Below are positions 4,649 to 63,847 of a DNA stretch of 64,000 nt, one piece after another. Both the position numbers and the translations under genes were made by a program. This DNA is from Deuterostichococcus epilithicus (Eukaryota; Chlorophyta; Trebouxiophyceae; Prasiolales; Stichococcaceae): assembly GCA_033439295.1 (NCBI GenBank), contig JAVTLE010000014.1, positions 3,782,001-3,846,000 of the forward strand. The letters run 5' to 3'. The notes beneath the pieces are model-generated. The model did not search any database and was not told the origin of the DNA. It saw nothing but the letters and a program-made list of their open reading frames with translations. Positions within the stretch are counted from its first letter, which is position 1; each line of letters begins with the position of its first letter.

Positions 4649-4827
4649 CCTGTGTGGTTGGAACCAGGGACGAATGAGTGGTGATGAGCGCGATGTGATT
4701 GTGGTGGCAGATGGCACATGCTGCTTGTAGAGTTTGTACATGCACCTCATTGTCGGGGGCGTGTCCGTCTGAAAACAGCAATCGTATTAAGTTGCTGATG
4801 TTCAAGTGGGCTTGAAACGTACGTCAG

Positions 4828-7913
<3,086 letters not shown>

Positions 7914-28297: not shown

Positions 28298-28922
28298 TGC
28301 CGCGCGGCAGGCCTTTAAAAGACGCCGGAAAAAAGCACAATACAGATGATCAAGCTGGATCGCTCCTGTGCAGCATTTGGACACAGCACCTACTCAACTA
28401 CACTTTAGTCAGAGCTTCACTAGGTCGCCTGACCGCCAGACAAAACTCAAACTCCAGCGGCGGCCAGCACAACCACCAACCCTCCCCAACCAGCCTGAAT
28501 GCCACACAACACCCAAACGAATGAATACAATACCAGTCAACTACCTTGGAACGTTGCACTCAGTCACCAGACTGCTGCTGCCGCAACACATTGCCGCAGA
28601 GAATACCTCGCGCGGCCACGCATGAAGTCGCGGCCGCAGCCAAGATCAGACAGGGAATAAACGGAACAAGCCATCCATACGCTGGACCCAAGACGGATAC
28701 TTCGTTCAGCTGCGATCACGCTCTGCAAACTGATAGCTAGTTGGTGATTATCAACACGTTCGCCAGGCCGTCGTAGAGATGCTGATCTGCTGAAGCGTGA
28801 AGCATGCCGGAACCCGCGCCAAACTCTTTGCCTTCCTGGGCAACCTGTCAATTGCCCTCGTGCACTGCCGTGCTATTGCTACCCTCGTCTGCCCTTGTCA
28901 CCTCAATCAGAGCCCGGCGTGC
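28298..28922. promoter_or_regulatory. Intergenic region: NUP155 promoter side and expansin-like 3' UTR
   Basis: The two minus-strand genes are head to tail here. The 625 bp must hold the NUP155 5' flank and the 3' flank of the expansin-like gene. Only short frames without protein character are open. Confidence 0.45.
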
Positions 28923-31433: not shown

Positions 31434-31802
31434 GCTGTATTGTGCCGCAGGATTTGAACAGGCGAAGTTGCATGTATTGCCGAGCATCGCAGCTGCATGC
31501 CAGCCAACCCCTGCTTGCAACCCCTTCCAGCTGTGAGCTGTTCATGACGTGACAGAGAGATCCCAAGATCTCGACTCGTCCTCCGAGTTCATGAGTCACA
31601 GGGGCGGGAGCGTTGTACGCAGGAACCCCTGCGGGAAGGCAGTGCTTCAAGCCGGTCCGTGGCTCGCGTGTTCCACTACAATGGGTGCTGCAAGCGGGGT
31701 TGGCTAAAAGATCGCCACCCGGACGGGGCGAGCTGCACTCGGGCGGGGCTCGGTCCAACGTTCACAAAATACACCGCTGCCCACCACGTTGTGTGTGTAT
31801 GG
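31434..31802. other. Intergenic region between expansin-like and MYND genes
   Basis: About 370 bp between two minus-strand genes. A plus-strand frame across 31613-31828 has no family features. I see no gene. Confidence 0.45.
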
Positions 31803-33645
31803 TCAGACGCGCTGGACGACAAACATGAAGCCGTTACTGAATGACGGCAGCGCGTTGTCCTGCCCCTGGCTGCTGGCGGGCCGCCGGAAGGGGTTGGCGC
31901 ACACCGCCATGCTGGTGGGCTGGTTCAGAATGGCCTCAGCCATCGCTGCCGCGCGCAGCGCCGCTTCCTCGCAGTAGTCTGTGACCACGCACGGCGTCCC
32001 CCGCGGCAGGCCACGCAGCGTGGGTTCCCACGACGCATATGCTACCAGCCCTGCGGCGGGCATGAAATCATTGATTGTAGACTGTCTTGTGTGTCGTTTA
32101 GGCATTGCATGATGAAAATGTTTGAGGCACACGTGACAGAGTGCACAGCCTCAACAGCCACAAGATCATGCACAGACTAGCTGGCAGTCCAATGCAAGTC
32201 CTGCCTGCATTTGGTGCAAAAATCAGGTCTGGCCGCGGCAAACTGCCAGCCTCATGGTACAGGCCCCGGCAAAATTCCAGTCTCATCCGGCCGCTCCCTG
32301 CATAAAAAGCCATCCGATTGTCACCTCTGGAAACCATCATCGCATGATGAGGCTCAGCACGACAAATCGGCACGACGCCACGTCCTGCCTGGTCTGTGAA
32401 GCTCAGGGATTGAAGTTCACCGAGCGACATCTCCTGTGCATCCAGGGCCTGCGCCACGTCCGGGCCCACTAGCAGCACGTGAATGCTGCAGCCGGGAAGC
32501 AGGCTGGCCAGCTCTCCGAGCACGGGCCACTGGTCCATCTCCTTCTGCGGCCCTGTGACGCAGCCGCATCAGCGCGGTCAGTGGCATGTCCAGCCGGAAC
32601 TATGGAATTCGGTGCTGATCGGCACAGTGCACGTCAAAGCAGCAGCACGCCATCATGTGCAGCATTTTCACCGCTCACCAAGGAGGTGGATGGTGAACTG
32701 TGACGGCAGAGCGCTGCCGCCAAATGCGCACATGATGGCATGGTACAGCGTCAGTGGCGCCTCCAGCAGCAGAGCTGCGCAACCACAGCAGGTCCGGCTG
32801 TCAGGTTGGACCGAATTTGAGGAGCATCATACAGCTCCATTCACACGTCGTCAACAAGGTGGACTACTGACCTGCTGGCGAGCTGCGCGGCAGCCCCCGG
32901 CAAGCATAGTAGTCGCCCCACGAGCTCAGCACTGATGCATCCTCCCCAGCCTGAACGCATCAAGTGAGATGAGCACCAAACCACCATACTGGCCAGAGTC
33001 GAGGTATGCCAACTCTGCGGAAGATGCGAAGCATGGACATGCAGAGCCTGCAGCGCCTCACCGCAGAGTTCGTCCCAATCAGGCGCTTTGGCTTATCTGC
33101 CGACGCGAGTCCGAGCAGATCGAGAACGTCAGCATCATGTGGGCATCCTGGCAGCGGCTGCAGGCTGCCCCAGGGCACATCGCAGCTGCAGGCGCACTCC
33201 CGCCGCCACAGCCCCTGGTTATGGACCCCGCACCGCCGCAGGAAGGCGCACATGGACGCGACGCCGCTGTCGATGCCGACCGTCAACTCCTCCGCAAAGT
33301 CGAAGGGCAGCTGCTGCAGCTCCTGCAGCGGCCGCGCAATCATGCTCGCATCAGCATCCTGCCTCTGGTTCAGGACCTAGCTTGATATGTAAATATGCCT
33401 GCCGGCACGCACCATACAGCAGCATGGCAATTTGGACGCAACCATGCAGCGAGGGTCGAACTGATGCACTGTGGCTGTAGGACCTCTCGGCGGAGCAGCT
33501 GCTGCGCCATGCGTGCGCACTCCTCCGCGTCGTGACCCAGCCGTGCGTGCCGCCGCATGTGCTTGCCGCTGCAGTAGTACATCGCGCTGCATCCTGGGCA
33601 GCTCAGGGGGGCTGCTTGACCACACATCTGGCACTCGTGGTCCAT
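31803..33645 (-). CDS. MYND zinc-finger protein of the MSS51/ZMYND15 type
   Basis: The start chosen is the ATG at 33645 (MDHECQMCGQAA). A longer open frame upstream has no ATG. The first exon is a MYND finger: C-x2-C, C-x2-C-x4-YYC, then H-x3-H-x3-H and a final C (near 33640-33520). Further exons read LPFDFAEELTVGIDSGVASM (near 33310-33255), PLTLYHAIMCAFGG (near 32755-32710), LASLLPGCSIHVLLVGPDV (near 32510-32450), LPRPDLIFAPNAG (near 32245-32205), and finally AYASWEPTLRGL, TPCVVTDYCEEAALRA and FSNGFMFVVQRV. The PDLIFAPNAG and TDYCEEA blocks are characteristic of the MSS51 C-terminal domain. Yeast MSS51 controls cytochrome-oxidase mRNA translation, but the role in algae is not established. 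It is divergent from the CHI-fold gene. Confidence 0.82.
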
Positions 33646-42767: not shown

Positions 42768-45700
42768 ATGGAGACTGTTGTGAGCAAGCTGCAGCAAGCA
42801 GAAGAGGCGCTAGGTCAGGCAGGGCACGCCCAGCTGGCTGCGAAGGTGGGACTTGCGGTGAGGCTGTCGACCGGACATTTGCAGCCAGTAGTGGTCCTGC
42901 AGGTGAGCACTGAGCTGAGTGATTGCATACCCGGAGCGACAGCTTCGTCCTGCTGAACGGGCTCGCAGCATGCAGAGTGTACTGACGTATGCATACTGCA
43001 CTGTCAAAGCCCCGGCAGGCCTCTTGGAGTCACATCAAGATTGCGCTTGAGTTTTCCTTGCTGCAAGCACAGGCCATCGTCGGACTGCTTCACTGTGACT
43101 CCGCCGCCATCCGGAAGCTGGCGCTGCAGACAGCGGCCTGCGACGCCATGCTGTGCGACCAAGCAGCATGCGCGCATACGATGCTCGCTGCAGGCATGCA
43201 TGCCGCTGGTCAAGTCGTTCACCTTCCCAGACTTACAGACACCGCTGCACACAAGGCTGATGACGGCCTTGCAAGGCCCTTCCGAATGCTCTGCCGCATG
43301 CGGCCAGGGTCTCATGCAATGAGACCTGCATCGTCGGCATTAGTTACAAGTGAGTCGGAGACGGAGGCGGGGGCCGGCCGGCAACTGCAGCTTGATCCTT
43401 GCCACAGGTGTGGAAGACAGGGATGCGAATGTGCGCTGCGAGGCGCTGCGCCTCGCTGCCGCATCCGCGCCGCAGCTGTGGCACCACGCGGACTCGACAC
43501 CAGCACCTGACAGCACCACGGTCAGCCGGCTGTTCGAGAGGATCTGCATGAGGTGCGCTCGTGGCTTCGGAAACCGTGCTGCACTCGTTCAAGTTGCCCG
43601 TCCGCAGTCTGCGGTGTCGCTGCACAAGCCCTAGCAGCGCTGGTGACCGCCATCCACCCTGCGCTGCCTCGCGTCTGCTGTCTGCAGGCTGCTAGACAGG
43701 ACGCAGACCGTGCGCGCCAGGGCCGCCGCCTGTCTGACCAGCGTTTTGAAAGCTGCACCCCACTGCGGCGGCGGCGGCGATGGGGGCGGCGGCAATGAGG
43801 GCGGCGGCGGCGCACGTGACGCAGACTCGGGGGTACCCGCAGACCCCGCCGCCCGAAAGGCCTTAGGCCGAGCGCTCATGCAGCACACAGAGCGAGCGCT
43901 GCGCGTCCACGACCATCTGCAGAGCCTGGTGGGGCGAGCAGCCGCCCGCGCCAATGCCCGATGCGCATCTCAGCGTGTCAGGAGTGCTCAGCTGCGCGGC
44001 ATCTGCGGCCTGGCTGCATCGTCGACTGGGGTTCAAGACGGTCGCCACTCCCGATGTGGTTGCATTGGTCGGCTGCCTGCATGCTTGCACAACGCTCAAC
44101 ATCAGCATTCAGAACGCTTCGCAGTGTCTCGCAAGACCCTGTCCTTGTCCACAGCACATGCACTGCAGACTGGATGCCCTTAATGCTGGTGCGCAGGCCG
44201 TGTTTGAGCTGCTGCTCGCCGGCTCGCACCTGCTGTCCGCTGGCAGCGCAGAGCAGGCCCAGACCCTGGTGCGGCTCCTGACCACTCTGCAGGGGCCAGC
44301 CCTGCCGGGACTGGTGCGCTGGCTGCTGCCCCAGCGGCAGGCGGCGGCAGCGCACAGCTACCAGCTGTGGGCGGCCGTTGCCGGCCTGTGCCGCCCCGAA
44401 CAGGTGCCTCCTGCCCCTGCATTCCTCGCATAATTTACTACACACATCGTCAGGAGGTCATGCGCCCGTGATGGCAGGCTTGCCTGGCGACCTGAGAACG
44501 GCTGCCGATGCCGCACGTGCAGCTGGTAGACATAAGACTCAGGGTCGTTGCGGCATGTGACGACGCTGCCGCTGCGGGCGGCGCGCGAATCGTGGAGCAG
44601 CAGGGCTTTGCTGCGCTGCTCAGAGCGCTGGCGGGCCTGTTTCGGGGTCGCAGCACGATGGCAGAGGCGGCCGTGCACCCAGCTGGTAGCAGTGGCCTCT
44701 CATTGACGCTGCTGGAGGCCAGCGCATGCCTGAAAGGTGATTTCGCAACCCCTCCATAGCAGCCGGATCATCGCGTTCTGAAAGCCTGTAATTGACCTGT
44801 GGCTGGAATTCGCCATTGACTGCAAGCGGCATGCATTGCTTCGCACGAAGGCGGGCCTCAGTCATGACTGCAGATGCGCATTGATGAGACCTCCTTTCCA
44901 TGCAGTTTTGTCCATCTTCTGCGGGCTGCGGCCGGGCAGCAGCGAGGATTTTCAGGGCGAGGCTTTCCTCGTCATGGATGTGGCAGACGTGCTGCTGCAG
45001 CAGTTGCAGCTCCAGGCCAACGTCCGGCAGGGCGGCGGCCCGCCGCACGAGCAAGCTGCAGCGGCACAGCCGCCCACTGGGCAATCGGAGTTGCGCTGCT
45101 GCCTTGTGCTCTGCCTGAAGGCAAGCCTTCTCTGCCGCACGCAAACCACCTGCGATGTCGTCGGGAGCTTCGTTTCTGGTAGAAGCACCCTGCGGTCGTG
45201 TGCCGATTGCCTGTGGAACCAGCAGTCTGCGCACAGGACGCACACAAGCCTGCACTCCGCCTTGGTGCTGCCAGGTGCTGCGCGCGGGGACCATTGCCGT
45301 AGGGCCCGGCGGCTCAGCCAAGCGCTGCCTGACCGGCTTCATACGGGAGCGCATGTCGTGCTTCAGGGCCCTGGAAAGCATTGCCGTTCAGGATGCCGCG
45401 CTGCAGGCAAGTATGCTCCCATGCGATAAGTCGTGCAACAATCGTCAGGTCTGGCCTGTCCCTTTTTGACACTGCCTCAAACATTATTGCTGATTGTGAA
45501 AGGATTCAGGATAATATATCTGATCCATGGCAGTGTGCAGGTGCTAGCGGCATGCTGCCGCCGCAGCCAGCAGCTGCAAGAGTCTTATTTGCAAGCCGAG
45601 GCGGCCGCTCTGGCGCCGGCGGCGGCTGCCGCTCTGCCCGGCGACATGGCCCGAAGCGCCGGCGCAGACGCGGCGCTGCTCGTCAGCCACGCCGGCAGCG

Positions 45701-48435
45701 CAGCAGAGGCGTTCGTCATGGCGAAGCACACGTTCCTGCAGCGGCTGAAGCAGTCTAAGACGGCAGCTGCGCTGGAGGGCGGCAGCGGGGTCAGCCTGTC
45801 GGACGCGCATGCCACCGGCGCCGTGGTGGCTGACGAGCTCATCGACGCGGCAGGTGCGTGAGCTGGTGCAGATGAATGAGGCTTGCGTGCAACGATCTTG
45901 GGCATTGCTTGGGCGCGCCTGCACCTACGACAGCACTCCTGCAGCATCGCCCTTGCCTTCGAGTGAGGTTCGGACACAAGCACCTTGCGAGGTCACCCAG
46001 CACGCAAGCGGGATTTCTCTCTTTCCTTTCCCGTCTGCACAGCTGCTGAGCCGTCAAACGAGCGACTGGCACCCAGCGAGCTCACGGCAGCAGATGTGGC
46101 AGCGGCCGACGTGTTCGTCAATGGGCTGGCCCGCGCTGAGCCGCCGGGCATGCGTCTGCCACTGCTGAGGGAGCTCCTGCAGTCGACCGACACGCCGCCC
46201 GCCCTCCAGGTGGGCCGCAAACACGACCTATTTTCCTCAAGACACTAGGATAGAACTCAGCCGTGGACAAGTCCATCAGAGGTTCCGACCAAGTCACCCG
46301 ATCGGAATGGACCTCCGCGCCAGCAAGGAGGGCGGCGCAACCACGTCACTGCACAGCATGTATTGACTGACAGCTTGACTTAGGCAGTCAGTTGGACTCG
46401 TTCTTCTCAAGTGATCACCGCGCGCCGCAGGTCGTGTGTCTCCGCAGCCTAGGCCGCATCATTGGCGTCACAGAGTCGCTGAGCTGCGAGCACAGCAGAA
46501 TAATTGCCGCAGCGCTAGGCAGCGGCCGTGAGGTAGCTTTTCTAATGGACTCCTACTGCACAGCTGATTGGAAGGTGGTGCCTTCCGGCTGCCCACGTCA
46601 TCACCAACCCCATCTGCTTCTGTTGCTGTGCTGTATCAGATCCTTGCTTGCCCCCCGAGGATGAGCATGGCAGCATGGCGCAATTGGCACGCCCGTGCTT
46701 GCAAACCCTCTCATTCGTTCTGCACTTCCTGTTCAGGAGCTTCAGCTGGAGGCGGTCAGCATCGCGCAGGCGCTCATCGAAGCCTATCCCAACGCGCACT
46801 CGGCTCTGCTGCAGCGGCTGAGCTCGCTGCCACTGGAGCCTGCGGCCGCCGACGCCGCCAGGCAGGCGGCTGCGCTCGCATTTGCACGCCTCGCGCTGCT
46901 CAACAAGCACAAGGTCTCGGACATGGTCGCGGCGCTCTGCCGCTGGCTGCTGGTCGACCAGGCCGAGGTGCGCCACCTGTCCAGCCGTTTCTCAGAGATT
47001 TCTTCTAGAGATCCTTTTGAGGTCAATTAGAGGAGAATGTGGTAGACTGCATCAATGTGACAGGCACGCACAGGCAGTCAACAGGAGTGCAGATGCGAAT
47101 GCATCTGGAGGCTTTTGTCGCCGACCCAGCCAATGCTCCGGCAGTTTGTGCCTGCAGCGAGCAATTCTCCTGCCGCACCTCACACACTGCTCAGCCACTG
47201 AGCACTGGCACCAGCTGCATTGTCAGCAGTGCTGCCATCGCTAGTCAGGCGGGGCACAATATCTCAGCAGAAGGCGCCGACCTGCAGGTGGCACGCCTGG
47301 GGCAGCTGGCATTGCGGCAGCTACTCCAGGACAACAGCAAAGACCGTGCGGCGATGCTGTTCGGCATCCTCGACGCCGCGCCGCCCGGCTCCGAGGCTGC
47401 CATTGCCCAGGCGCATGCCTCCAATCGCTGCAATTTGCCGAGACCTCTCCTGTGTTTCAGCGTGCACTCCTACCGAGGAGCACTGCGGAATTGCGGGGCG
47501 GCTGGGCTAATTCCATCGCTTCCAATCAAATGAGCCCTATGCATGCAAGGATGCAGGCTCCGTGTCGAAACAGCTGCGTTCTTGTTGCGCCAGCAGCTCC
47601 GCCCTCAGCTGCGCAGGTGATATGCGACGAGTTCTTGGCCGAGGGCGACCGCAGGTCCGAGGTGCTGTTCGCTCAGTGCCTGCAAAAGGCTATGCACGCA
47701 ACAAGTGAGGCGCAGGCCCACGCTGCGGCAGTGGTGCTGCGGCACCTGGCGCCGCCTGTGCAGGCGCTTAAGCCGTTGCAGCTGAGCCTTCAGGTGCGGT
47801 GTGCCTGCGCGCAAGTGTGGTGTGTCTGCGCAAGTGTTGTGGCAGAGAGTGAGTGCATGTCCTCGCGCGATCTCCATCGTGCCAAATAATGCAGCACCCT
47901 GATATCGTCGACCTTTGGTGGTCGATAAGAGACTGTTGCCGCCATGTGGCAGCGCTTCAGGTGTTATCCCCGTCCACGACCTGGCTCAAGAACAATAGAG
48001 ACAACACATCAATACGACAGGGGACAGATCCCGACTTCTTTCAGCGGGACCCGGCGGTGTGCGGCGCCCTGCGCCACTGCGTGGCGGCTGCAAGCCCGGC
48101 TGCCGGGGCGCGTTCCCAGGCGGATGCGAACCTGAAAGCCGCGCTGTTGATGCGGCTGCAGCGAACTGGCCATGCTGCAAAGGTCAGTGTTCAAGCCCAA
48201 GGTGTTTGCATCATGCCTCGCTTGGACATGCTGCATTCGCGATTTGCATCCAGGCCGATGGTCTCTGTTGCTGAACGCTCGCTGCAGCACAGCCCATTGC
48301 CATTTGAAGCTCGATTTGCTGCAGGTGTGCAAGCAGCAGGTCACAGAGGCTGCGGAGGACGTGAACGAGGATGCTTTGGAAGAGGAGATGCACATGCGGC
48401 AGCAGGCTCTAGCCGCGCTTCGGGGCAATGCATGA
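42768..48435 (+). CDS. Large HEAT/ARM-repeat protein resembling a condensin D subunit (CAP-D2/D3-like)
   Basis: The ATG at 42768 (METVVSKLQQAEEALGQAG...) is followed by many small exons of Ala/Leu-rich helices. Examples are LLHCDSAAIRKLALQTAA, GVEDRDANVRCEALRLAAAS (near 43408-43470), FELLLAGSHLLSAGSAEQAQ, FVMAKHTFLQRLKQSK and MRLPLLRELLQSTDTPPALQ. The best family signal is VVCLRSLGRIIGVTESLS (near 46431-46485) continuing to EELQLEAVSIAQALIEAYPN, FARLALLNKHKVSDMVAALC and VDQAEVRHLSSRF (46737-46990). This parallels the conserved condensin D stretch (alternating 'LGKLM', 'LILNDMVKVKGQ' and 'RI..LA..FF' helices). It ends ALEEEMHMRQQALAALRGNA at 48435. Condensin D subunits bind DNA and SMC2/4 in mitotic chromosomes. 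Similarity is weak and another HEAT protein cannot be excluded. Confidence 0.45.
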
Positions 48436-50178: not shown

Positions 50179-53100
50179 ATGGCGCACATGCAGAGCGGAT
50201 GCCTGGCTCCATGCGGATGCAACCAGGTGGCGGGCCTGCGCCCGGGTCTCGTCAGCAGGACGCAGATCGCTAGGCTGCAAGCACGGCCATGCGCAGGTGC
50301 CCGATCCAGCAGGCGAACAGCCGTGGCGCCGCTCGCCGCCATCAAAGAAATCTTCATGCCGGCGCTCAGCTCCACGATGACAGAGGGGAAGGTCGTGACC
50401 TGGCTGAAGGGCCCGGGCGACAAGATCACCAAGGGCGAGAGTGTGGTGGTCGTCGAGTCCGACAAGGCTGACATGGACGTGGAGTCCTTCACCGAGGGCT
50501 TCCTGGGCGGCATCGTGATTCAGGAGGGCGGCGTCGCCAATGTTGGTGAGGCTCTGCCATTATTTGACTGCTCAGATCGTTCAGTGTGTTCGCCCGGCTC
50601 CAAAGCCGAAACCGACGACGATCGCCCCTGCTGGCGTGCGATCAACCAGGCTGAGAAGTGCAAGCAGCTGAGCGCGGGTGCGATCTATCCGCCTTGGCCC
50701 CTGTGCCTACGAATGGGCTTTCGCATCGCGACATGCTTGCAATGCGCATTTGTGCAGGCGAGCCTATTGCATACGTCGCGGAGACGGAGGGCGAGCTGGA
50801 CGAGGCCAAGGCGAAGGCCAGTGGCGGATCCAGCGGCAATGGCGCCGCGGCGGCCGCCCCGCCGCCGCCGCCGCCACCGCCACCGCCACCAGCAGCCGAG
50901 CAGGCCCCCGCCCCAGCACAGGCATGCCTCTGGATGATCCGCTGCAGACCTGACTTTCAACTGAGTACCATAATCTTTGCAGCATCAGCACATGGGATGT
51001 CGTCACAACGCAGAGGCACACCGCTGGCTAGCGTTCGTATCGTATCTCGATTCATTCATGTTTGGGTCCGCATTGATCACCCGGATGCATGGTGGCTCTT
51101 GGTGTGGTGCCTCTTATCCGTCCATCCCCTGTGCGAACACGCTTCCAGGGCCGCGTCACTCACACTACTGCCCTGTTCATCCTCTGCAGCCCGTGGCAGC
51201 AGCAGCGAGTGCAGCCGCGCCGCCGCCGCCGCCGCCGCCGCCGGCCGCCGCCGCGCCGCCATTGCAGAAGCGTGCGGACGGCCGCGTGGTGGCGACGCCG
51301 TACGCCAAGAAGCTGGCCAAGGAGCTGGGCGTGGACCTGGCGGCCATTGGCGGCAGTGGCCCCGCGGGCCGCATCACCGCAGCGGACGTGGAGGCCGCCA
51401 AGAACGGCTCTGGCGCCGCCGCACCCTCAGGTCTGCGTTGGCAAGCCCGCCGTGTCCAGCTCTTGGTACGGCTATCGGATCTTGCGAGGCTGCCTCCAGA
51501 AAGAGCTCCGCTTGTGCACCGAGCCTCGTCTGTTGCTGTCCTGGCACATGTGGGTCGAGGCCCATGCACTTTAGGCATCCTCGAGTGCAGCGGGTGCCTG
51601 TGGATCACCGTGACACGTTGCGCCGCCAACTAGCAGTCCTCTGTGCCAGCCCTGAGGCGTGCACATGCGTCGCATGCCCTCGTGGCATGCACATGTGTCC
51701 CCACCCCCTCACCTCTTTCTATGTGTCTCGCTGCCGCAGCCCCTGCGCCATTGGCGCCGTCAGCGCCCTCAGCCCCCGCACCCGCAGCCGCCCAGCCGCC
51801 AGCGCCCAAGCTGGCGCCCGCCGCCGCGGAGGCGACCAAGGTGTCGGAGCTGCGTGGCACCACGGTGCCCTTCACAGCCATGCAGAACGCAGTCAGCAAG
51901 AACATGGTCAACAGCCTGGCGGTGAGGCCACTGAGGATCATAGGCCGTTTCCCTGTTGGAGGTAGACATTCGTGAGGCAGCCTCGCGCGCACAGCTGCAC
52001 ACAGGCTGTGGTGAAAATGGTTATCGGTGACGGGCCCACCGGCCTGCCCTCTAGCAACCGACATGAAGGCTTCCATGCCCCGTCCTCATGATGTTCCGGC
52101 CACAGCTGGCGCCTGCCTTTGCACCCGTGACACCGTCCAGGACGCGAAACATGTCCCGCAAAACAGGTGCCGGAGTTCCGGGTGGCCTACACCATCACGA
52201 CCGACAAATTCGACGCGCTGGCCAAGCGCCTGAAGCCGAAGGGTGTCACCATGACGGCGCTGCTGGCCAAGGCCGCCGGCGTCGCGCTGGCCCAGCACCC
52301 GCTGCTGTTTGCAGGTGCGCATTTGTGATTGCTGTGCCGCATCTTGTGCGTTCCCACCGACAGGACATCCTGTGCTCACACGACACCATTTGTAAGCTAC
52401 CAGCGCTGGCATGCATTGCTTGTCTTTGGCATTTCCGATGCTGTGATTGCCTTGAGCAGCATGCTCAACAGACACCGTCCCTGCAGCGTGCACGCCGGAC
52501 GCGAGCGGCATCACATACAACGAGGCCATCAACGTGTCGCTGGCGGTGTCGATGCCGGACGGTGGCCTCATCACGCCCGTCCTGAAGAACGCGGACAGCA
52601 CAGACATCTACCAGCTGTCCCGCAACTGGGCGGTGCGCCCCCCGTTCAGCTGCCTTCGCAAGTTCTCAGGGCCGCTTCGTGTCTGGCTGTCCACAAGGGA
52701 GCAGCCACACTGCGCATCACTCGGCTGCTTGGATGCGCAGCTCACCCGCCTGCCTTCCTTCAAGTCTTCCTGCCAACAGATCCGACCAGAGCCCGGAGAT
52801 CATCCGGGCAGGGCCCATGCCATCGATTCTGCATCAGGCTGGGCGGCAGCTCGCAAGAGCCTTTGCTGAAGTTTTATGCCATCCTAACCATAGGACCTGG
52901 TCAAGCGGGCCCGCGGCAAGCAGCTGTCGCCGGACGAGTACAGCAGCGGCAACTTCACCATTTCCAACATGGGCATGTATGGCGCTGACACCTTTGATGC
53001 CATCCTGCCGCCAGGTCCGCACGCCCCAATATGCGATATCAAATCCTCAATAGCCACCCTTGCGATGCATAGCGTCTTGCATCCCTGCCGTCTGCTTGAA

Positions 53101-53487
53101 CTCCCCCACGGGCGTGCATGGGGAGGGCACCGCCTGACCAGCGTGGCGAGCTCCGTACCAGCAAAGCGCAAGCGCCAGCAGAGGTCTTGACTCTAGACAG
53201 CACCGCACAGACGTTTGCTCAAGCCTCCGACACAAGGGCAAACCCAAAGATCCGGCCTCGAAACGAAGCCGAGCATTCCCTGCCGCGCCGCAGGCACGGC
53301 GGCCATCCTGGCGGTGGCGGCCAGCAAGCCGGTGGTCACGGCGGACGCAACCGGCCGCATTGGCGTGGAGCGCCAGATGAGGGTCAACCTCACATGCGAC
53401 CACCGCATCGTGTACGGCACCGACGCCGCCGAGTTCATGCTGACCCTCAAGAAGGTCATCGAGGACCCCGACCAGCTGGCCTTCTGA
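50179..53487 (+). CDS. DLA2: Dihydrolipoamide acetyltransferase (E2) of the chloroplast pyruvate dehydrogenase complex
   Basis: The ATG at 50179 opens a plastid-type transit peptide ([11 protein letters not shown]...[14 protein letters not shown]). The lipoyl domain follows: [28 protein letters not shown] (lipoyl Lys codon 50464-50466), GEPIAYVAE. Two Pro/Ala-rich linkers follow (50850-50920 and 51190-51260). The E1/E3-binding domain is [20 protein letters not shown] and [16 protein letters not shown] (51286-51400). The catalytic domain comprises [75 protein letters not shown] and [17 protein letters not shown], ending EDPDQLAF and TGA at 53485-53487. It transfers acetyl groups to CoA, feeding plastid fatty-acid synthesis. 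The active site reads H-R-I-V-Y-G rather than H-x3-D-G, as in land-plant chloroplast E2, supporting plastid rather than mitochondrial location. Confidence 0.95.
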
Positions 53488-55078: not shown

Positions 55079-56911
55079 TCACGACCCCTCTGGATCCACC
55101 GCCATGGCTGTGGCACCCTGCCGCTGCTCGTACGCTGCCATCAGCTGGGCGGCTTGTCGCAGTGAATCTAGGTTGATGGCGCCGCCGCTGCCGCCTCCGA
55201 GCATGCGCCGCCGCCGCCGCAGCTCCTGATCTGCGGCTGCCACTGCGAATTTCCAGCGCAGGTATCAGCAGACAACACCAGAAGCTGCAGTGGGGAAGCA
55301 CGCGTCCACAGACAGTACGGCAGGACATCTTAGGCAAGTCAGGCGGTAGCCTGTCTGCCTGCGCCTGGGCCGCCGCCGCACAGTGCCACCGCTGGGCTGC
55401 AAGGTTGTGTCGTATAGATGGGGGCGGCGTCCCTCTGGAGACGCCATCGAGATGCCGCACACCTGAGTCGACGACCTGGGGCTGCATGCGCGCTGCCTGC
55501 GCCACCTGCAGCCGCTGCGCCTTAGCCAGCAGCGGGCGCAGCCGCGCCGCGTCGGCCGCGATGGCCCGCGCATCTTCTGTCACGTTCTCCTTGCCCGCCG
55601 CCGGCGCAGCCACCGCCTCCAACTCCAGACTGTCACCTGCAGTAACGCACGCCGGACGGCGTCGAATCAGCAGAGAGCCCTGCAGCTCATGCTGGAACTA
55701 ACCCGCCAGAGGCCAGCGGTGGTGAGGCGCCAGAGAACGGGTGGCACACGAATAGGGACTGGCAGCCAGTGTAACTGCGCGATTGCTCTGCTGGGGGCCT
55801 GCGGCACGAGACAGGCCTACGCAGCGCTGGCGTCATCATGTCACCAGGACGCAGTTGAAACTCCAACAATAAAATTTAATGCTATTCCCACCGTGCAGCG
55901 CCAGGTCCCGGTCCATCGCCGCGAGCTGCGTCCGCATCTGCCGCACGTCCGACCGTGCGCCCTGGATGGCCGCCCGCAGCACCGCCAGCTCGTCTTTGAG
56001 CCGTGCTTCGCCTGCCGCGTTCGCCGGTACGGCATAGCCCACGCCGGACGGCGGCGACTGCGCGGCATCAGTTTGCTCATATCAGAACCACAGCGTGCCG
56101 CAGCATCCGGGCGCGACCGAGAAGCCCCAACCGGGACGGAAGTGCTCCTCGACAGACTGCAGCGGCAATGGCGATGCGGGTCCCGCCATACACGGCTGAT
56201 GGGCGAGATCTCTCAGCGTGCCGCCCACACGATCACAGGGCGGCATGACACGCACGCTGTCATTTGTGACTCATACCTGTCCCATGTCCAGGCCTGGTGG
56301 AATCTGCAGGCAGCTCTGCAGCGCGTGGCCCTCGAACAGGTCCATCTGCTGCTCCAGGCGGGCGCTGACACGCTGATAGAGCGCCTCCGCGCCCTGCGCA
56401 CATTGCACGATGCTGGCGACTGCAGTACGTGGAGCTCACAACAGTGGGCTGCAGCATGTTGACCTGGCCGCCCTCATCGGCCGGACGCGTGCAAGCAGCC
56501 ATGCAAGCATTGTTTCGAGCCATTGCGGGCGCAGCGAAGGGCTGCGCCCTGGGTGGGTAGGAAGCGAGAACAGTACCTGTTGCAGCTCCTGCCGCTGCCC
56601 CTCGCTCGCAGGCAGGTCACTCAAGAGACACCGTTCCAGCGCGTCAAAGCCGTCCGCGCAGTACTCTGCCACCTGCATGAAGTGAGGACATCACCAAGTC
56701 GCCTTGACAGTCCGCCGTGGCAGTCTCTCCACCCACCCTGACAACCCAGACCAGGCAGCCTCACCGAGCTCCGGATGTCGTCGATGAGCACGTCGCCGTC
56801 GATGCCAAATGGGTCGCGGCTTGCAGCCTCGTTGTTTGGCTGCTGGTGCAGCGCTGACGCTGTGTCAGCAAGCGGTTCCTGCCCGCTTGCCGCATTGTCG
56901 CCTGCTGTCAT
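55079..56911 (-). CDS. MIS12: MIS12-like kinetochore protein
   Basis: The ATG at 56911 (MTAGDNAASGQEPL...) leads to FGIDGDVLIDDIRSS and, across an intron, VAEYCADGFDALERCLLSDL (near 56678-56620). Next is ALYQRVSARLEQQMDLFEGH then ALQSCLQIPPGLDMGQ (near 56400-56275). Then comes a long charged coil, ARLKDELAVLRAAIQGARSD (near 56010-55950) onward. The last exons read TEDARAIAADAARLRPLLAK and INLDSLRQAAQLMAAYEQRQ, stopping at 55079-55081. The order - an N-terminal helix pair, a short 'L-F/W-E-x-Y/H-x4-C-x-x-x-P-x-G' segment and a coiled coil - and the length of about 300 residues match MIS12, a subunit of the complex linking centromeric chromatin to microtubule-binding NDC80. Sequence identity is low, as usual for this family, so the call rests on pattern. 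Confidence 0.6.
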
Positions 56912-57348: not shown

Positions 57349-59845
57349 ATGAGCTTCCGCGATTGCACGACGACTGTGCCAAGGATCGCTGCAAATGCAA
57401 TAGGCAGCCCCCGAGCCGAGACGGAGGCCACCAGCTCCAGCTTCCAGATAGGCGTCGAGAGCGTGTCACTGGCACTCATACGGCACGGCGTGGTGGTGCT
57501 GAAGCTCAGGCAGGAGGACGCGGCCTTCCTGAGGCAGCTGCAGGATGCTGCATCGTCACACTTTGCGGGACAGCAGACGCCTCTCACGCCCGCCTGCAAC
57601 GGCGGCCACGTGGTGCTGGCAGGCTGCCACTCGATGGAGTACCGCCCTGGCAGCCTGAGCTGCGCAGCGCTGCCGCAAGAAGTTCGTTCTGCGGCGCACC
57701 AGGTGCGCTCGAATTCTCAGCCATCGGTTGCTGCAGGCGAATTTTGACATGCTTGAACAAATGTGGTCAAACCACTCAAACGGACGTGCGGAGACCCCCA
57801 AAAGTGGCCCAGCCTGCCCGAGACACTTTTGAAAATGGCGACGTTTAAATATTGATGACAGGCCAGCCATTGCCTGCAGCAGGCTGCCGTGCTTTCCATC
57901 CGTGTGTCTGCTTCTCACACCAACGGCCTGACGATCTTTCTCTTCACGCTGCTGTGCAGGCTTTCACGCTGCTGGACTCCATCGCGCGGATGGTGCTGCA
58001 CGCAGTGTGCCGCTCGTGCCATGTGCGGCTGCACCAGGCGACTCTGGACACGCTGCTCGATGAGCACCCACTTACGGACGGCGTGACGTCTTCGTCCGTC
58101 CTCCAGGCATGCTATTACACCCAACTCTTCTGATCTTGTTAGGAGTTGTCGTGAAGTGAACGAATCCCGTGCCTGAGGTATTGTCAATGCAGCTGCAGTC
58201 GAGACAGGCCATCATCTCTGCAGCAGGCTGTGTGAACCACCTCGTGCTTGCCAGCTCGGCAGCGGGCACCTCACCGGAAGGAAGCTCCCAGTGCTGATGT
58301 GCGGTTGTGGTGCGCAGGTGCAAAAGTCCATGCAGGCCAGCCTGGCAGCGGGCATCGAGCAGGAGGCAATGCATACAGATGAGGTCCTGCCGCACGGCCT
58401 GGTCAGCGTCATCACCGCGCAGAACGCCTTCGCCTGGGAGCAGGCTGCGGACGGCGGCGAGCCGCAGCGAGTCTGCACCTCCATGCTGCAGGTGCGCTGC
58501 CGAGCTTCAGCCTTGATAGTGGACTTTGGCGCGGCCATCCTGACGCGTAGGATGCGTTTACCGCTTCCCAAGAGCTGGGCATGCAGTGCACAGCTCTGGC
58601 TGTCACCCAGGGGCGTCTGCCCATCACTGTCCCACCCGCCCATCGAGGCACCGCTCCGCCCTTTCTCCACACTTCTCACCCCCAGCGCCTTTGAAAGCTA
58701 TGTCGTGGTCGGCAGGTGAAGGATATGGAGGGCAAGTGGGCCAACGTGGACCTGGCCTCGCCAGACGAGGTGGCTGTCATCCTGGGGGCGACGGCGCACC
58801 ACTGCACCGCCGGCCTGCTGCGCCCCTCCGTGTACCGAGTGGTGAGCCCTTGTTCCAACCGACTGCTGTGCTCCTGCGGCCCCCGTCCCGATGCAGCGTC
58901 TCGGCAGGCTGAGTCTGCAGGAGGCGGGTGTTGAAGCGCACGACGTGACTTGAGGAAAGCTTGACGAACGAGGTAGCTGCGGCGGCGCCTGCAAGATATG
59001 GTGCTGCCCCTGGCATGTCGCTGGACTGGCGCTGCCTTGAGGCGGTGTGTACTCTGAGCCAACGGTCGCGGCCCCTCACGCGTGCCAGCAGCTTTCGCTG
59101 CTACGTTGCGTTGTGGCAAGACTCAATCTTCGCACCGGCAGGTGGGCGATGTGCACGCTGGCAGCGGCCGCAGCTCAGCGGTGTTCGAGCTCATGGCGCA
59201 CCCGGACGCCAGCATCGACTTTGCGGGCGCCATGCAGGACGCCGGCCACTTCGTGCACGACAGGCGCGCCCTGTTCACGACCGTCGCTGTGCTATCGGCG
59301 CTGTACTCCATGCCTTACGCCGCCAGCCCAGCACTTTGACGCCTTTTCGTGTCTGAGTGACAACATCCCCGTTCAACCGATGGCGAGATGTTAGTTCACG
59401 CCAGCTTTCACAAACCTTCGGCAGCTGCAGAGACCTGAGTGGCAGTCTGCCGACCTGGCAGCAGGTTCGTGGAGCCGACAACAGCGCGGCAGTTGTCGAA
59501 GCGGCTGGAGACGGCTCGCAAGGCGCAGTCCAGTGCCCGCTCCTCGGCGACCTGCGTCCTGCGCTCCCGCAGCAGCAGCCTGGGGCAGCCCGGCGGCCTG
59601 GGGCAGCCCACGCCCGGCAGCGCAGCCTCCAGCGGGGACATCCAGCCGGCCGCCCGCAAGCCGGCGGCTCGCAGGTGTGCCTTCATGCACACGCACGCAC
59701 AGATCTGCACGGGGCGGCTCTGGTCATCATGTGGTCGCTGGCGCCATCCCCCTGCTTGCTTGCTTGCTTGCTTGAATTGACAGCAGGAACACAGTCACTG
59801 CAGGGGCCGCAAACGGGCGGCGCCAGACGAAGGCGCGGAGCCCGC

Positions 59846-59878
<33 letters not shown>

Positions 59879-61057
59879 GCTGGGCTCGCCGATCGCGACG
59901 CGTGCCAGGCGCGCGCTCAAAAGCCGCCAGCAGCAGGCGCCAGCCGCCGCCCAGTCGGCAGGGGCGCAGCCGGCCGCCAAGGTCGGCCGCCACTCGCGCA
60001 GCAGCACCTCTGCCGCTCGACAGTCCTCCGGCTCGCTGCCGCCGGCAGGAGCCGAGGCTGCCGCCGCCGCGGGTGCCGCGACGCCAGCAACTGCGGCACA
60101 GCCGGCAGTCCCCAGCGAGGCCAGGTGCGACTCCAGTCTGAGGAAGCGATGTCCACAGGACCAATGACATGCCCATGGACGGATGGTGCTCCCCGGGCGC
60201 ATGCCGTGTTTTGTGCTCATGATGCTGGCCCTGCAGTCCTCTAAGTGCGTCGGCTCATGTCGCCGCTGCCGCCTCCACCTCATGTCGCCTCTGGTCCCAA
60301 TCTGCAGGGAAGCCTATGTGAGCATCCCGGGCGTCGAGGAGGCGAAGGTGAAGGAGCAGCTGGAACTGATAATCCAGAATCAGTTTGGCGAGACGGTGCG
60401 AGCCCCTTTACATTTGGATATACATGCTCCTGACCCCGCTGTGGCAGCGGCGTTGCGGAGTGGCACACAGGACCACGCTGCTTGTGCACACCAGCACCAC
60501 CATGACTGCCAAGGCTCAATAGGCTGCGCCACCCTCTGCCGCTGATGTATTGCTGGCCGCAATTGCCGCAGGTGTGGTTCAAAACGCTCAAATCGCTGGT
60601 GCTGGGGACAGTCTTCGAGATATTCTGCGAGCGAATGGGCGCCGACCTTGGGGCCGTGAGGTTCTTGTACAAGGTATGGTCTGGACCTGTGGTTTGCTAC
60701 TGCCGCAGAACTATTCCGCAAATCGTTTCCTTTCTGAGTCTTGCCAATGCTCGCTGCCTCACCCACTGTTGGCATGCTGTGATGTTGCAGGGCAACCGCA
60801 TCTTCGGCTATGACAGGTGATGCCTTCATACCCAATTGTGGTGCATGTTGCAATGTAAGATGGCCGCATTGAGGATGGACTCGGTGCCTGCATCCGACTG
60901 CCTTCACTCTGACCCTGCCTGATTGCCTCGCACCTGTCATCGCACCGCGTCGAGCTGACAGGATTTGCCTCTTTGCAGCCCGACCACGCTGAAGCTGGCA
61001 CCCCAGGACGTGATCACAGTGGAGCCGAACGTGCGGCCGCCAATCGCAGAGACGTGA
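57349..61057 (+). CDS. 2-oxoglutarate/Fe(II) oxygenase fused through a poly-Q, basic linker to a SUMO-like domain (582 aa)
   Basis: Eleven exons agree in phase (57349-57702, 57960-58106, 58318-58491, 58716-58841, 59142-59263, 59465-59674, 59804-60124, 60308-60395, 60572-60673, 60791-60816, 60979-61057; 1749 nt). The N-terminal part matches isopenicillin-N-synthase-like plant proteins: VSLALIRHGVVVLKL, LLDEHPLTDGVTSSSVLQ, an AMHTDEVLPHGLVSVI block with the H-x-D metal pair (H186, D188), and ATAHHCTAGLLRPSVYRV with distal His (H253/H254) and Arg266 for 2OG. After DAGHFVHDR comes FVEPTTARQLSKRLETARKA, then a low-complexity linker with GRKRAAPDEG and ten CAG-encoded Gln. The C-terminus is SIPGVEEAKVKEQLELII then VWFKTLKSLVLGTVFEIFCE, VRFLYKGNRIFGYDSPTTL and KLAPQDVITVEPN: a Rad60/NIP45-type SUMO-like fold without terminal Gly-Gly. 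Introns after 58106 and 59263 start with GC. Confidence 0.7.
58107..58317 (+). other. GC-AG intron in the oxygenase domain
   Basis: The exon end CTCCAG is followed by GCATGC; the acceptor is TGCGCAG before GTGCAA. No GT donor near 58106 keeps the conserved SSSVL segment of the oxygenase intact. Confidence 0.6.
59264..59464 (+). other. Putative GC-AG intron joining the oxygenase to the SUMO-like part
   Basis: Donor GACAG|GCGCGC, acceptor GGCAGCAG|GTTCG. Phase 2 on both sides; gives GHFVHDR-FVEPTTARQ. If it is not spliced, the oxygenase frame ends at a TGA at 59337-59339. Confidence 0.5.
59847..59876 (+). repeat. CAG trinucleotide repeat (ten units), poly-Gln coding
   Basis: Ten perfect CAG codons in exon 7 of the oxygenase-fusion gene. 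The phase fixed by the flanking exons makes them glutamine, although the poly-Ala and poly-Ser frames are also open. Confidence 0.8.
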
Positions 61058-61619
61058 AACAGTATTGCGCAGGGGGTTACACCCAACCCTCTTCCTGTAG
61101 GATTTGGATTGCGTAGCCGGTGGCCCGACCCAGCGCAAGGGCCGCAGCACAGCATTGAGACTTCAGAATGTGTCTCTTCTTCCTGGGCAGAAAGTTGGGT
61201 GCTATGGCGAGGGTCTGCAGCAGATATACGGTGCATTAACCATAGATAAACATGCTGAAGCACCGACTTCGTCAGTCCAGAACATGCCGCAACGGCGACT
61301 AGGTACCGCATCCTCCTCAAATTGACCACAAACTGTGTGACCATCAAGCCCTCCACAACTCCTGCTGGCGTGGCTTCATGCCCCTGCAGCATGCACACAA
61401 TTTCAAGATCATGACAGCACTTTGCACATGTTCCATGTACCGCAGAAACCACAAGCAGGGGGCAGGCGCCGGGAGTAGTAACATGCCTGTGGCGGCAGCT
61501 GACGAGTGGGCCGCTGGCCGGGTGGCCCTGCGGTTTCGCCGTCGGAGTTGACAGTGCACCTGCCAGGTGCTGCATGGCTAGGCAGCACGCCGCCTGGCGC
61601 GGCGCGAGCCGATCCTCCG
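61058..61619. other. Convergent intergenic region (3' UTRs)
   Basis: About 560 bp between the stops of the oxygenase-fusion gene (plus) and glutaminyl cyclase (minus). No gene seen. Confidence 0.5.
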
Positions 61620-63847
61620 TCATCCCCTCAGGTTTGGGATGCAGGCCTGCCGGGCCTGCTCCACGCTGAGCGCGACGCTGCGCGCCAACTTGACCTGGTA
61701 CAGCTTGTGCCACCACTTGCCGGTGACAAACAGCCGCTTGCCCTTGTCGTCCCATGCGATGCCTGCGCAGCAGGGCGAGCACACTCCTCGGCCGCCAGCA
61801 GCTCACTACACTCACAGCAATGTGACAAGCTGCAGTGACTTCACAGCCCCCCACCCTGTCCCCTCTCCCACGAGGGGTGTGCGCAGTCCGGGTGGCGGAC
61901 GCAGCAGCACAATGTCCAATGTCCCCCTGTTCACTGCCATGGTGCTGCGTCATCAGTGCGTCACCAGTGCGTCATCAGTGCAGCGTCGTGCCCGGCATCC
62001 TGAAGTCGCAGAGGCGCGCCTGCCGCGCTGCGCTAGCCACTGTGCGATTCCATTCACCGCCTCCCTGTCAACACCTCCAGCAAAGGACGCCCCTGCCCCC
62101 TCACCGTTGAGCACGTCCATGTGGTGCCCTGGGTGCGCATCCCGCTCGCGGGCGCCTATGCCGGCCAGCACCGCCCAGCCGAGCACTGCGCCGCTCGCGG
62201 GGTCAATGCGCGCGATGCACTCCGTCTGCCACACGTTGCCCCAGATCTCGCCCTCGACCCACTCCATCTGCACGACCGTCGATGGGCATCAGGCTTGTCG
62301 GACTGAGTCCCCCGTCAGCAGACCTGGCGGCGGCAACGAAGTCCCTTCCAGTGCCTGCAGACGTCGCCCCGCCGGCAGCAGGTCACAGCGAGCAGAGGTC
62401 TGGTGAGAGGAGTTTTCGCCGCTGCAGACATCATCTGCGCCTGTTTGCGCATGCCGCAGTCAGGTGCGAGATGGTGTTTGAGCCTCCTGCGACGCGCCTC
62501 ATTGACCCAAGGGACCAGCTGCTCGCCGTCGTGCACGTCGACGGAACGCTGCCGCTCCATCGTGTGCGGGTCCAGCCAGGTGATCGTGGGGCTGCTGTCC
62601 GACACGATGAGCGACTGGCCGTCAGTGCAGATGCCCCAGCCGTCCGTCAGCGGAGACCGCAGCTCCTGGACCTGCGTCGGGTGTGGTTCGGCACAGGGGT
62701 CAGCACCAAGTTTCACGACAGCGACAGCGTTGACCCTGATGCAGCTGGTTGTCGATCGGCGCCCGGAAGTGCACTCGCTGGCCGAGCACATCGTGCTGCG
62801 CCGTGACCGGCAGTCTGGCGGCAGTACTGGATCGTGCTGGAAGAAAGGCGCTAAAGGAGGCAGGCTCAACTCGCACCTCGTCAAAGTTGTCCGCCTTGTA
62901 CGAAAACATCTTTGGGCTCTGCCAAGTCAGCTGAAACAGCCTGCAGGCACCAATGGCATGTCAAACGGGCCATGCCCTGCGAGTCTTGCACGCAGCAGTA
63001 TCTGCTGCGGTGGGCCGGTGAACACAGAATGTGACAGAATGGACAAGGATGAACGCATGAACACGCACTTGTCGCCGAACTTGGTGACGCCCTCTGCAAA
63101 ATCGCTGTGCTCCAGCATCTTTTTCCGCCGCACCTCGCCCGTTTCCAGGCTGACCTCTCGTATCGACGACTGGCCGTTCATACCTGCACCGGCGAAAAGC
63201 ATGTCCAACGTCGATGCTGCTGTGCTGCCGCTGCTGCACCGCCGCTGCATTGCGTCAGTGTGATGGTTGTGCCATCCCAACGCAGCTCGCGCCCAGAAAT
63301 CGAGCTGAACTTGAGCAACATTGCGTCGGCAGCACGGTCGCCGCTGTGGATTGCTGATCACACCCTCACCGGTGGACTCCCACAGCACGTCCTCGCACGT
63401 CTGCTTGCCGCGGGCGGCGTTGCGGCAGCTGCGATCAAATTCCAGACCCTGCGTGAAGGCCTCTGGGCTGTGGTCCAGCTCCCTCTCGATCGTGTACTGA
63501 TACACGAGCGGCTCCTGCTGCGTGCCGCTGGGTGCCGTGCCTGGCGCTGCCATGGCCTGCCGGTGCGCTGCCGCTGGCTCTGAAACTGTGGGAGGGCCGG
63601 CGGTGTTGTGTCGCCATACCATGCCGACCACCACGACTGTCTGCACATCATTAAACCCATTGTAAATCGCGAGGATAGTGAGGACTAGCCTTGATCCTGA
63701 GAAGAGCGCTTCTTCTGCTTGCACACGGCATGAACGCACCAGCAGCACTGCCGCAGCGGTGATGGCCTTGGAAGCGACATCTTGCGCTGGGTTGCCTCCG
63801 TGTCCAGCGTCGGCAGGACCGAGGTTTCGCCGTCGTTTCTTGCCCAT
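61620..63847 (-). CDS. QCT: Glutaminyl-peptide cyclotransferase (plant-type beta-propeller glutamine cyclase)
   Basis: The ATG at 63847 (MGKKRRRNLGPADAGHGG...) gives a basic N-terminus, and RLVLTILAIYNGFNDVQTVV (near 63690-63635) could serve as a signal anchor for the secretory pathway. The core follows the plant/bacterial glutamine cyclotransferase family: YTIERELDHSPEAFTQGLEF (63500-63443), LWESTG, IREVSLETGEVRRKKML and DFAEGVTKFGDKCVFM (near 63165-63060), KADNFDEVRV (62900-62870), LTDGWGICTDGQSLIVSDSS (near 62655-62597), LVPWVNE, EWVEGEIWGNVWQTECIARI (near 62270-62205) and the end GIAWDDKGKRLFVTGKWWHK, with stop at 61620-61622. It converts N-terminal Gln to pyroglutamate on secreted peptides. 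A second open frame from 63960-63990 lies upstream; the start used is the first ATG giving a coherent N-terminus. Confidence 0.93.

Follow-up and report, generated by a model that had tools for sequence, protein, structure and literature searches.

A predicted green-algal gene joining a 2-oxoglutarate oxygenase fold with an altered iron site to a SUMO-like domain

Proteins that end in SUMO-like domains are known from the RENi family (Rad60, Esc2 and NIP45), where two such C-terminal domains are the rule, as described in PMC2946365. SUMO-like domains that are not conjugated can still make contacts: in PMC12687455, UAF1 is described as binding a loop that resembles a SUMO-interacting motif, and NIP45 and Esc2 as binding the back of the SUMO E2. 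Among the 2-oxoglutarate oxygenases, PHF2 and Epe1 are reported to carry a natural His-to-Tyr change at the iron site (PMC11790891, PMC7192584). Here, we describe a predicted gene of the green alga Deuterostichococcus epilithicus in which an oxygenase fold with a tyrosine at this site precedes a SUMO-like domain. The gene lies at 57349-61057 on the plus strand of a 64,000-nucleotide stretch of contig JAVTLE010000014.1 (positions 3,782,001 to 3,846,000 of the forward strand), hereafter the window.

The window protein shares with the DOXC oxygenases HIS1 (PDB 8y4u) and deacetoxycephalosporin C synthase the segments LQV, GxW, xRV and RxS, in the same order, as well as HxD. It differs from them in the tyrosine that replaces the distal histidine, in insertions around HxD, in a similarity that falls below Pfam detection, and in a basic linker and SUMO-like domain. 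The SUMO-like domain aligns with SUMO over its full length, with 30-36% identity to three SUMO sequences, but it has no C-terminal Gly-Gly, carries LAPQD in place of the acidic loop and Lys in place of an Asp, and is part of a larger protein. As in the RENi family, it forms the C-terminus of a longer protein; unlike RENi proteins, the window protein carries a single SUMO-like domain, preceded by an oxygenase fold, and a separate frame of the genome is NIP45-like by eye. PHF2 and Epe1 likewise belong to the 2-oxoglutarate oxygenase superfamily and have Tyr for the iron-binding His, but theirs is a JmjC fold, whereas the fold here is of DOXC type and no JmjC match was found in the window protein in Pfam. 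By analogy, these two JmjC proteins would be the nearest analogues of the His-to-Tyr change; we know of no SUMO-like domain in either. The pairing of an oxygenase with a SUMO-like domain, so far predicted from the gene model of one genome, would be unusual. If the transcript is confirmed, the gene would provide a domain pairing that was not found in the open-licence literature searched, and an example, from beyond the JmjC family, of a 2-oxoglutarate oxygenase fold whose iron site has a tyrosine. It would also raise the question of whether altered oxygenases can act as metabolite-responsive adaptors aimed by SUMO-like domains.

The gene is composed of eleven exons that encode 582 codons and a stop codon (Table 1). 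Joining and translating the exons again gave phase-consistent junctions throughout, which bears out the eleven exons in matching phase of an earlier sequence-only reading of this DNA. A gene finder that uses codon usage and splice sites, without homology, was trained on 198 kb of this 4.8-Mb contig, the window excluded. Its prediction is a single gene that has precisely the eleven exons of the model and one further exon of 3 nt (58921-58923); the latter is worth 0.36 nats and was dropped as spurious. Splits were forced at every third position from 59343 to 60558, and the best pairs of genes from the leave-window-out finder scored below one gene by 13.1 nats (59343-59465), 23.2 nats (59465-60124), 11.4 nats (60124-60310) and 13.5 nats (60310-60560); when training included the window, the best split fell 12.3 nats short. 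As a control, unrelated complete genes were abutted in 450 artificial pairs, 150 each at gaps of 60, 150 and 300 bases; the pairs were drawn from 22 genes and are not independent. A false-join gain of at least 11.4 nats occurred in none of them, and the maximum was 8.51. Eight predicted proteins were also checked against Pfam, and families were matched by four of five window genes (of the nine listed) and by all three from other loci. The finder's exons are sound as a rule and its gene ends less so, and thus the margin in nats, rather than the join itself, is the evidence for one gene. Given the splice sites, the phase, the codon usage and the leave-out finder with its control, the oxygenase-like and SUMO-like halves very probably form one fused gene, and the model from this one genome predicts that both are joined in the mRNA.

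An open frame is weak evidence in exons 6 and 7, since no stop interrupts any of the three sense frames there; the frame is picked by the codon score (15.0 versus -16.3 and -1.2 in exon 6, 20.5 versus -2.6 and -11.0 in exon 7). The genome consensus of the self-trained finder is CAG/GTGCG for donors and TGCAG/G for acceptors (the slash marks the splice junction), and at the fourth base of the intron the donor consensus favors C. The fusion gene has ten introns, of which two, those after 58106 and after 59263, begin with GC instead of GT. By the finder's own count, about 7% of introns are GC-AG (23/333 in the leave-out set, 34/433 with the window). The GC donor of exon 5 scores 5.15 and falls well among the GT donor scores (rank 0.46 among 399), while that of exon 2 is weak, at 3.06 (rank 0.08). 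With GC donors practically disabled, the finder still fuses the halves, using a GT donor of poor score after 59302 together with a shortened exon 2.

Table 1. Features of the fusion gene and of other predicted genes in the window.
Feature	Coordinates	Strand	Basis
Whole gene, 11 exons, 582 codons	57349-61057	+	Phase-consistent joins; single-gene prediction by the leave-window-out finder
Exon 1: start codon, N-terminal part of oxygenase half	57349-57702	+	Codon score 8.1 in frame versus -32.3 and -35.5 in the other sense frames
Exon 2: weak GC donor CAG/GCATGC (3.06)	57960-58106	+	Joining, splice scores, codon score
Exon 3: HxD (H186 at 58372-58374, D188 at 58378-58380)	58318-58491	+	Alignment and codon mapping
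Exon 4: LQV/GKW segment; Tyr265 (58833-58835) replacing the distal iron-binding His	58716-58841	+	PDB matches, alignment, profile
Exon 5: R277-x-S279, 2-oxoglutarate-binding motif; GC donor CAG/GCGCGC	59142-59263	+	Alignment, splice scores
Exon 6: final oxygenase segment FVEPTTARQLSKR and beginning of basic linker	59465-59674	+	Modest likeness to RFPPTTAGAWLMKR of paralogue L041; codon score 15.0
Exon 7: basic linker rich in Ala/Ser/Pro/Gln; RGRKR; CAG-encoded Gln run from 59847	59804-60124	+	Codon score 20.5 versus -2.6 and -11.0
Intron 7 part, open in the frame of exon 8, with five in-frame ATGs (rival starts of a separate SUMO-like product)	60183-60307	+	Codon mapping
Exon 8: beginning of SUMO-like domain	60308-60395	+	Joining, PDB matches
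Exon 9: SUMO-like domain, VWFKTLKS...RFLYK; Lys548 (60671-60673) replacing Asp of SUMO	60572-60673	+	PDB matches, alignment
Exon 10: SUMO-like domain, GNRIFGYD	60791-60816	+	Joining, PDB matches
Exon 11: end of SUMO-like domain, no Gly-Gly; stop codon	60979-61057	+	Joining, PDB matches, alignment
Mis12-like kinetochore protein gene, divergent neighbor	55079-56911	-	Pfam Mis12, E 2.3e-17
Glutamine cyclotransferase gene, convergent neighbor	61376-63553	-	Pfam Glu_cyclase_2, E 2.7e-78
Predicted gene: DUF2358, then SOUL heme-binding domain	11301-13712	-	Pfam
Dihydrolipoamide acyltransferase (E2)-like gene: lipoyl, E3-binding and catalytic domains	50356-53487	+	Pfam

The family of the upstream half was sought in structures, in a profile and in its own genome. 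With the C-terminal part as query, ten of the eleven PDB matches at E up to 10 are 2-oxoglutarate oxygenases (best E 0.05), among them the HIS1 type, a tri-ketone dioxygenase and deacetoxycephalosporin C synthase; the eleventh is an antibody heavy chain. The whole oxygenase half matched such oxygenases in six of eight cases (best E 0.17). Ordinary members of the family are present elsewhere in the genome and score 93.4 bits (L043) and 84.4 bits (L041) with Pfam 2OG-FeII_Oxy. A profile of three own-genome oxygenases and the HIS1 tail, built without the window, matched residues 221-309 of the window protein, a stretch that does not reach the HxD motif. It scored 24.4 bits, with E 4.8e-6 among 5001 sequences, and the best of 5000 shuffles reached just 11.4 bits. 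As judged from this score, the upstream half is a remote plant-type (DOXC-like) 2-oxoglutarate oxygenase by descent. A search of the own genome with the oxygenase half gave eight matches; six lie inside this gene, and the other two have E values of 0.175 and 0.372. No pattern match to this half was present in the viral contigs searched, and none of 33 pattern matches in bacterial and archaeal genome contigs was confirmed by tblastn, these collections being silent on other algae.

The sequence-only reading had the oxygenase continue past GHFVHD. The spliced tail after the join of exons 5 and 6, RFVEPTTARQLSKR, is similar to RFPPTTAGAWLMKR in L041 and to FPPTTSGQHLLDK at the end of L043, where 79 and 60 of 2000 shuffles, respectively, reached its score. 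The numbers are 1426 for paralogue L044 and 1157 for HIS1, and thus the continuation finds a likeness in two of four comparators and no signal in the other two. The read-through tail of exon 5 gave no signal against the same four comparators, with 448, 1962, 1244 and 650 of 2000 shuffles reaching it. These tails lend modest support to exon 6 as part of the oxygenase.

In a multiple alignment, H186 and D188 align with the HxD motifs of the three own-genome paralogues (HTD, HSD and HCD), and R277 and S279 form the RxS for 2-oxoglutarate binding in invariant columns. At the position of the distal iron-binding histidine (HRV), the window protein has Tyr265, encoded by TAC within exon 4. This residue is His in all four comparators, the three paralogues and HIS1, and Tyr likewise stands against His in the four printed PDB oxygenase alignments. 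Also missing is the Gly-Asp that follows the central strand (ILGATA versus NVGDML, NLGDML, NIGGDML and NLGDTM). H253 and H254 were considered as the distal ligand and rejected; L041 has LHHYTGG there and a normal His further on. Of the HxD...H...R signature noted earlier, HxD and the Arg, within RxS, are thus present, but the distal His is not. The reading of the protein as a hydroxylase is doubtful because this His is Tyr265, and the working hydroxylase that had been proposed is not supported, with one of the two iron-binding histidines a tyrosine. These residues make an ordinary hydroxylase unlikely, and catalysis would be expected to be weak, altered or absent. A single gene for an active enzyme, with Tyr265 as the third iron ligand or a substitute residue and the SUMO-like domain aiming the hydroxylase at targets in the SUMO pathway or chromatin, would agree with the kept HxD and RxS. 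It is an unlikely explanation in view of the distal His kept by every comparator, the missing Gly-Asp, and Epe1, which is reported to have no demethylase activity in vitro (PMC7192584).

Between the two domains lies a linker of ~156 residues. It is basic, with 20 Lys/Arg versus 6 Asp/Glu, and includes the CAG-encoded glutamine run, and in both respects the earlier description of a basic, poly-Q linker was correct. RGRKR is found at residues 378-382, and its first codon is split across the junction of exons 6 and 7. The linker is probably disordered, and its composition would be consistent with nuclear targeting.

Residues 485-582 match PDB chains named SUMO-1 with E values of 3.5e-7 and weaker, over residues 5-87 of the 98-residue query. 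A tandem chain named SUMO-2 (4bkg) matched at E 1.3e-15 over two repeats, the best of which gave 29.8 bits. The chain 5gjl, labelled 'Uncharacterized protein', which we take to be Plasmodium SUMO, matched residues 17-86 at E 4.8e-10. The SUMO-like fold predicted for the downstream half is borne out by these matches over the length of the domain. The wider description of it as Rad60/NIP45/SUMO-like holds for SUMO but probably not for Rad60/NIP45; identity to the own-genome NIP45-like frame is 22%, and no chain named Rad60 or NIP45 is among the best 60 of 162 PDB matches. Pfam Rad60-SLD scored 18.9 bits with the domain alone and 14.4 bits with the whole protein, below the curated cut-off of 23.8 bits, and Pfam finds one SUMO-like domain in the 582 residues. 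The C-terminus ends in EPNVRPPIAET and has no Gly-Gly for conjugation. The acidic loop of the comparators (MEDQD, MEDED, IEDGD) is reduced to LAPQD, and the Asp that four comparators (the own-genome SUMO, SUMO-2, 5gjl and the own-genome NIP45-like frame) share in the F(D)G turn is replaced by Lys548.

The genome encodes an ordinary SUMO in a separate gene (L020, Pfam 85.4 bits), whose Gly-Gly tail was read by eye. On the minus strand of the same contig, at 3287938-3288156, is L037, an open frame of 310 residues whose C-terminal SUMO-like domain scores 33.2 bits with Rad60-SLD. This frame looks to be of NIP45/Rad60 type by eye. Because the genome has its own SUMO and this separate frame, the SUMO-like domain of the window protein would not be the cell's SUMO, nor, probably, its Rad60/NIP45. 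A search of the own genome with the SUMO-like half gave four matches, three in this gene and one (E 0.003) in the ordinary SUMO; by these searches, both halves are single-copy. Judging by its C-terminus, the SUMO-like domain cannot be conjugated to other proteins. A link to SUMO-pathway partners is possible, and the absent Gly-Gly tail and Lys548 in the F(D)G turn speak against it. Non-covalent contacts would be the likeliest mode of the domain, by analogy with UAF1 and NIP45, which use their SUMO-like domains in this way.

Taken together, these features suggest one nuclear gene that encodes a two-domain protein. The first ~320 residues would fold as a divergent 2-oxoglutarate oxygenase of the plant (DOXC-like) type, with HxD and RxS retained and Tyr for the distal His. 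The basic, probably disordered linker would lead to a single, non-conjugatable SUMO-like domain. This domain may act as a non-covalent adaptor that docks on partners with SUMO-interacting motifs, while the linker may retain the protein in the nucleus, close to nucleic acid. The role of the oxygenase fold may be to bind a ligand or partner, its catalysis being weak, altered or absent, as has been discussed for Epe1 and PHF2. We put forward this non-covalent SUMO-pathway adaptor tentatively, as the likeliest of the readings considered, at somewhat less than even odds. The more specific proposal, that a non-JmjC fold independently took the His-to-Tyr change and became joined to a SUMO-like domain that cannot be conjugated, with the result a nuclear SUMO-pathway adaptor that senses 2-oxoglutarate or another ligand and is not an ordinary hydroxylase, is doubtful.

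Several observations weigh against the adaptor. The oxygenase half had no Pfam match at E up to 10, 2OG-FeII_Oxy included. Tyrosine can serve as an iron ligand, so catalysis is possible. Possible partner-binding residues of the SUMO-like surface are partly changed, which makes docking a guess. PHF2, with the same His-to-Tyr change, is reported to demethylate (PMC11790891). Moreover, the finder is prone to merging and joined 160 of the 450 abutted unrelated pairs (56, 62 and 42 of 150 at gaps of 60, 150 and 300 bases). It also fused separate-looking genes at 17432-33415 (minus), presumably an expansin-like and a nucleoporin-like gene, as an example of a false join; there, at the boundaries that seem likely (28315-29540 and 31040-31790), a split costs just 1.6-2.0 nats. 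The finder can split wrongly as well, and its leave-out model cuts the nucleoporin-like part at 20465-20765, probably in error.

The main rival to a single gene is a pair of genes, in which an oxygenase-like gene would end with the basic tail, its stop placed at 60165-60167 by one parse, and be followed by a free SUMO-like gene of ~105 residues that starts at an ATG of intron 7 (60219 or 60282). An independent downstream gene had been considered unlikely because no in-frame ATG precedes the SUMO-like part. For the exons this is correct: the methionines of the model are residues 1, 96, 129, 172, 185, 223, 229, 285, 298 and 536, and none is in the frame of exons 6-8. The conclusion drawn from it fails in intron 7, where five in-frame ATGs (60183, 60201, 60219, 60222 and 60282) all continue without a stop into exon 8. 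Such a product would have the size of SUMO, and the best two-gene parses, with and without the window in training, are of this type. We nevertheless regard two such genes as improbable: with the window left out of training they fall 11.4 nats behind one gene, they waste a phase-matched donor CAG/GTGCGA (6.98) and acceptor TCTGCAG/G (6.82) that both score well, and a free SUMO without Gly-Gly would be odd. The gap of ~50-115 bases between stop and start also speaks against them, but just weakly, because 3 of 12 predicted same-strand neighbors, perhaps mis-split genes, are spaced 15, 62 and 72 bases apart.

One gene could also encode a protein whose SUMO-like domain recruits Ubc9 and thereby sets the sumoylation of targets of the oxygenase fold, since the SUMO-like domains of the Rad60/Esc2/NIP45 family are described as binding Ubc9 (PMC12687455, PMC2946365). 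Against this, the protein has one SUMO-like domain instead of two, and its genome has another frame, L037, named NIP45-like by eye. Lys548 may correspond to E380 of Rad60, and the four comparators have Asp at this position of the F(D)G turn. The residue that contacts Ubc9 is described as acidic in the family (E380 in Rad60, D430 in Esc2; PMC7891725), and recruitment of Ubc9 is a rather remote prospect. A boundary between two genes at 59340-59465, named by the sequence-only reading as the case against its own model, is highly improbable, for although the read-through of exon 5 meets a stop at 59337-59339, the parse is 13.1 nats worse and the read-through tail is unlike the ends of four comparators, two of which the spliced tail resembles.

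The window has a G+C content of 61.6% and belongs to a genome of 46.8 Mb in 21 contigs, with intron-rich genes. TGTAA, a candidate poly(A) signal, occurs 19 times on the plus strand of the window versus ~26 expected. It was absent within 1000 bases past the stop in all five plus-strand genes checked, the fusion gene included, and occurred once or twice in each of four minus-strand genes; owing to this mixed strand result, it was dropped as a mark of gene ends and nothing was concluded from it. A predicted 419-residue protein at 14344-16804 (plus) had no Pfam match at E up to 0.001. By eye, we take the product of 639-6350 (plus) to be an SNM1-nuclease-like protein and that of 42768-48435 (plus) to be a condensin-subunit-like protein. 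The fusion gene is flanked by a divergent and a convergent neighbor (Table 1), and the predicted start of the Mis12-like gene lies ~440 bases from its own.

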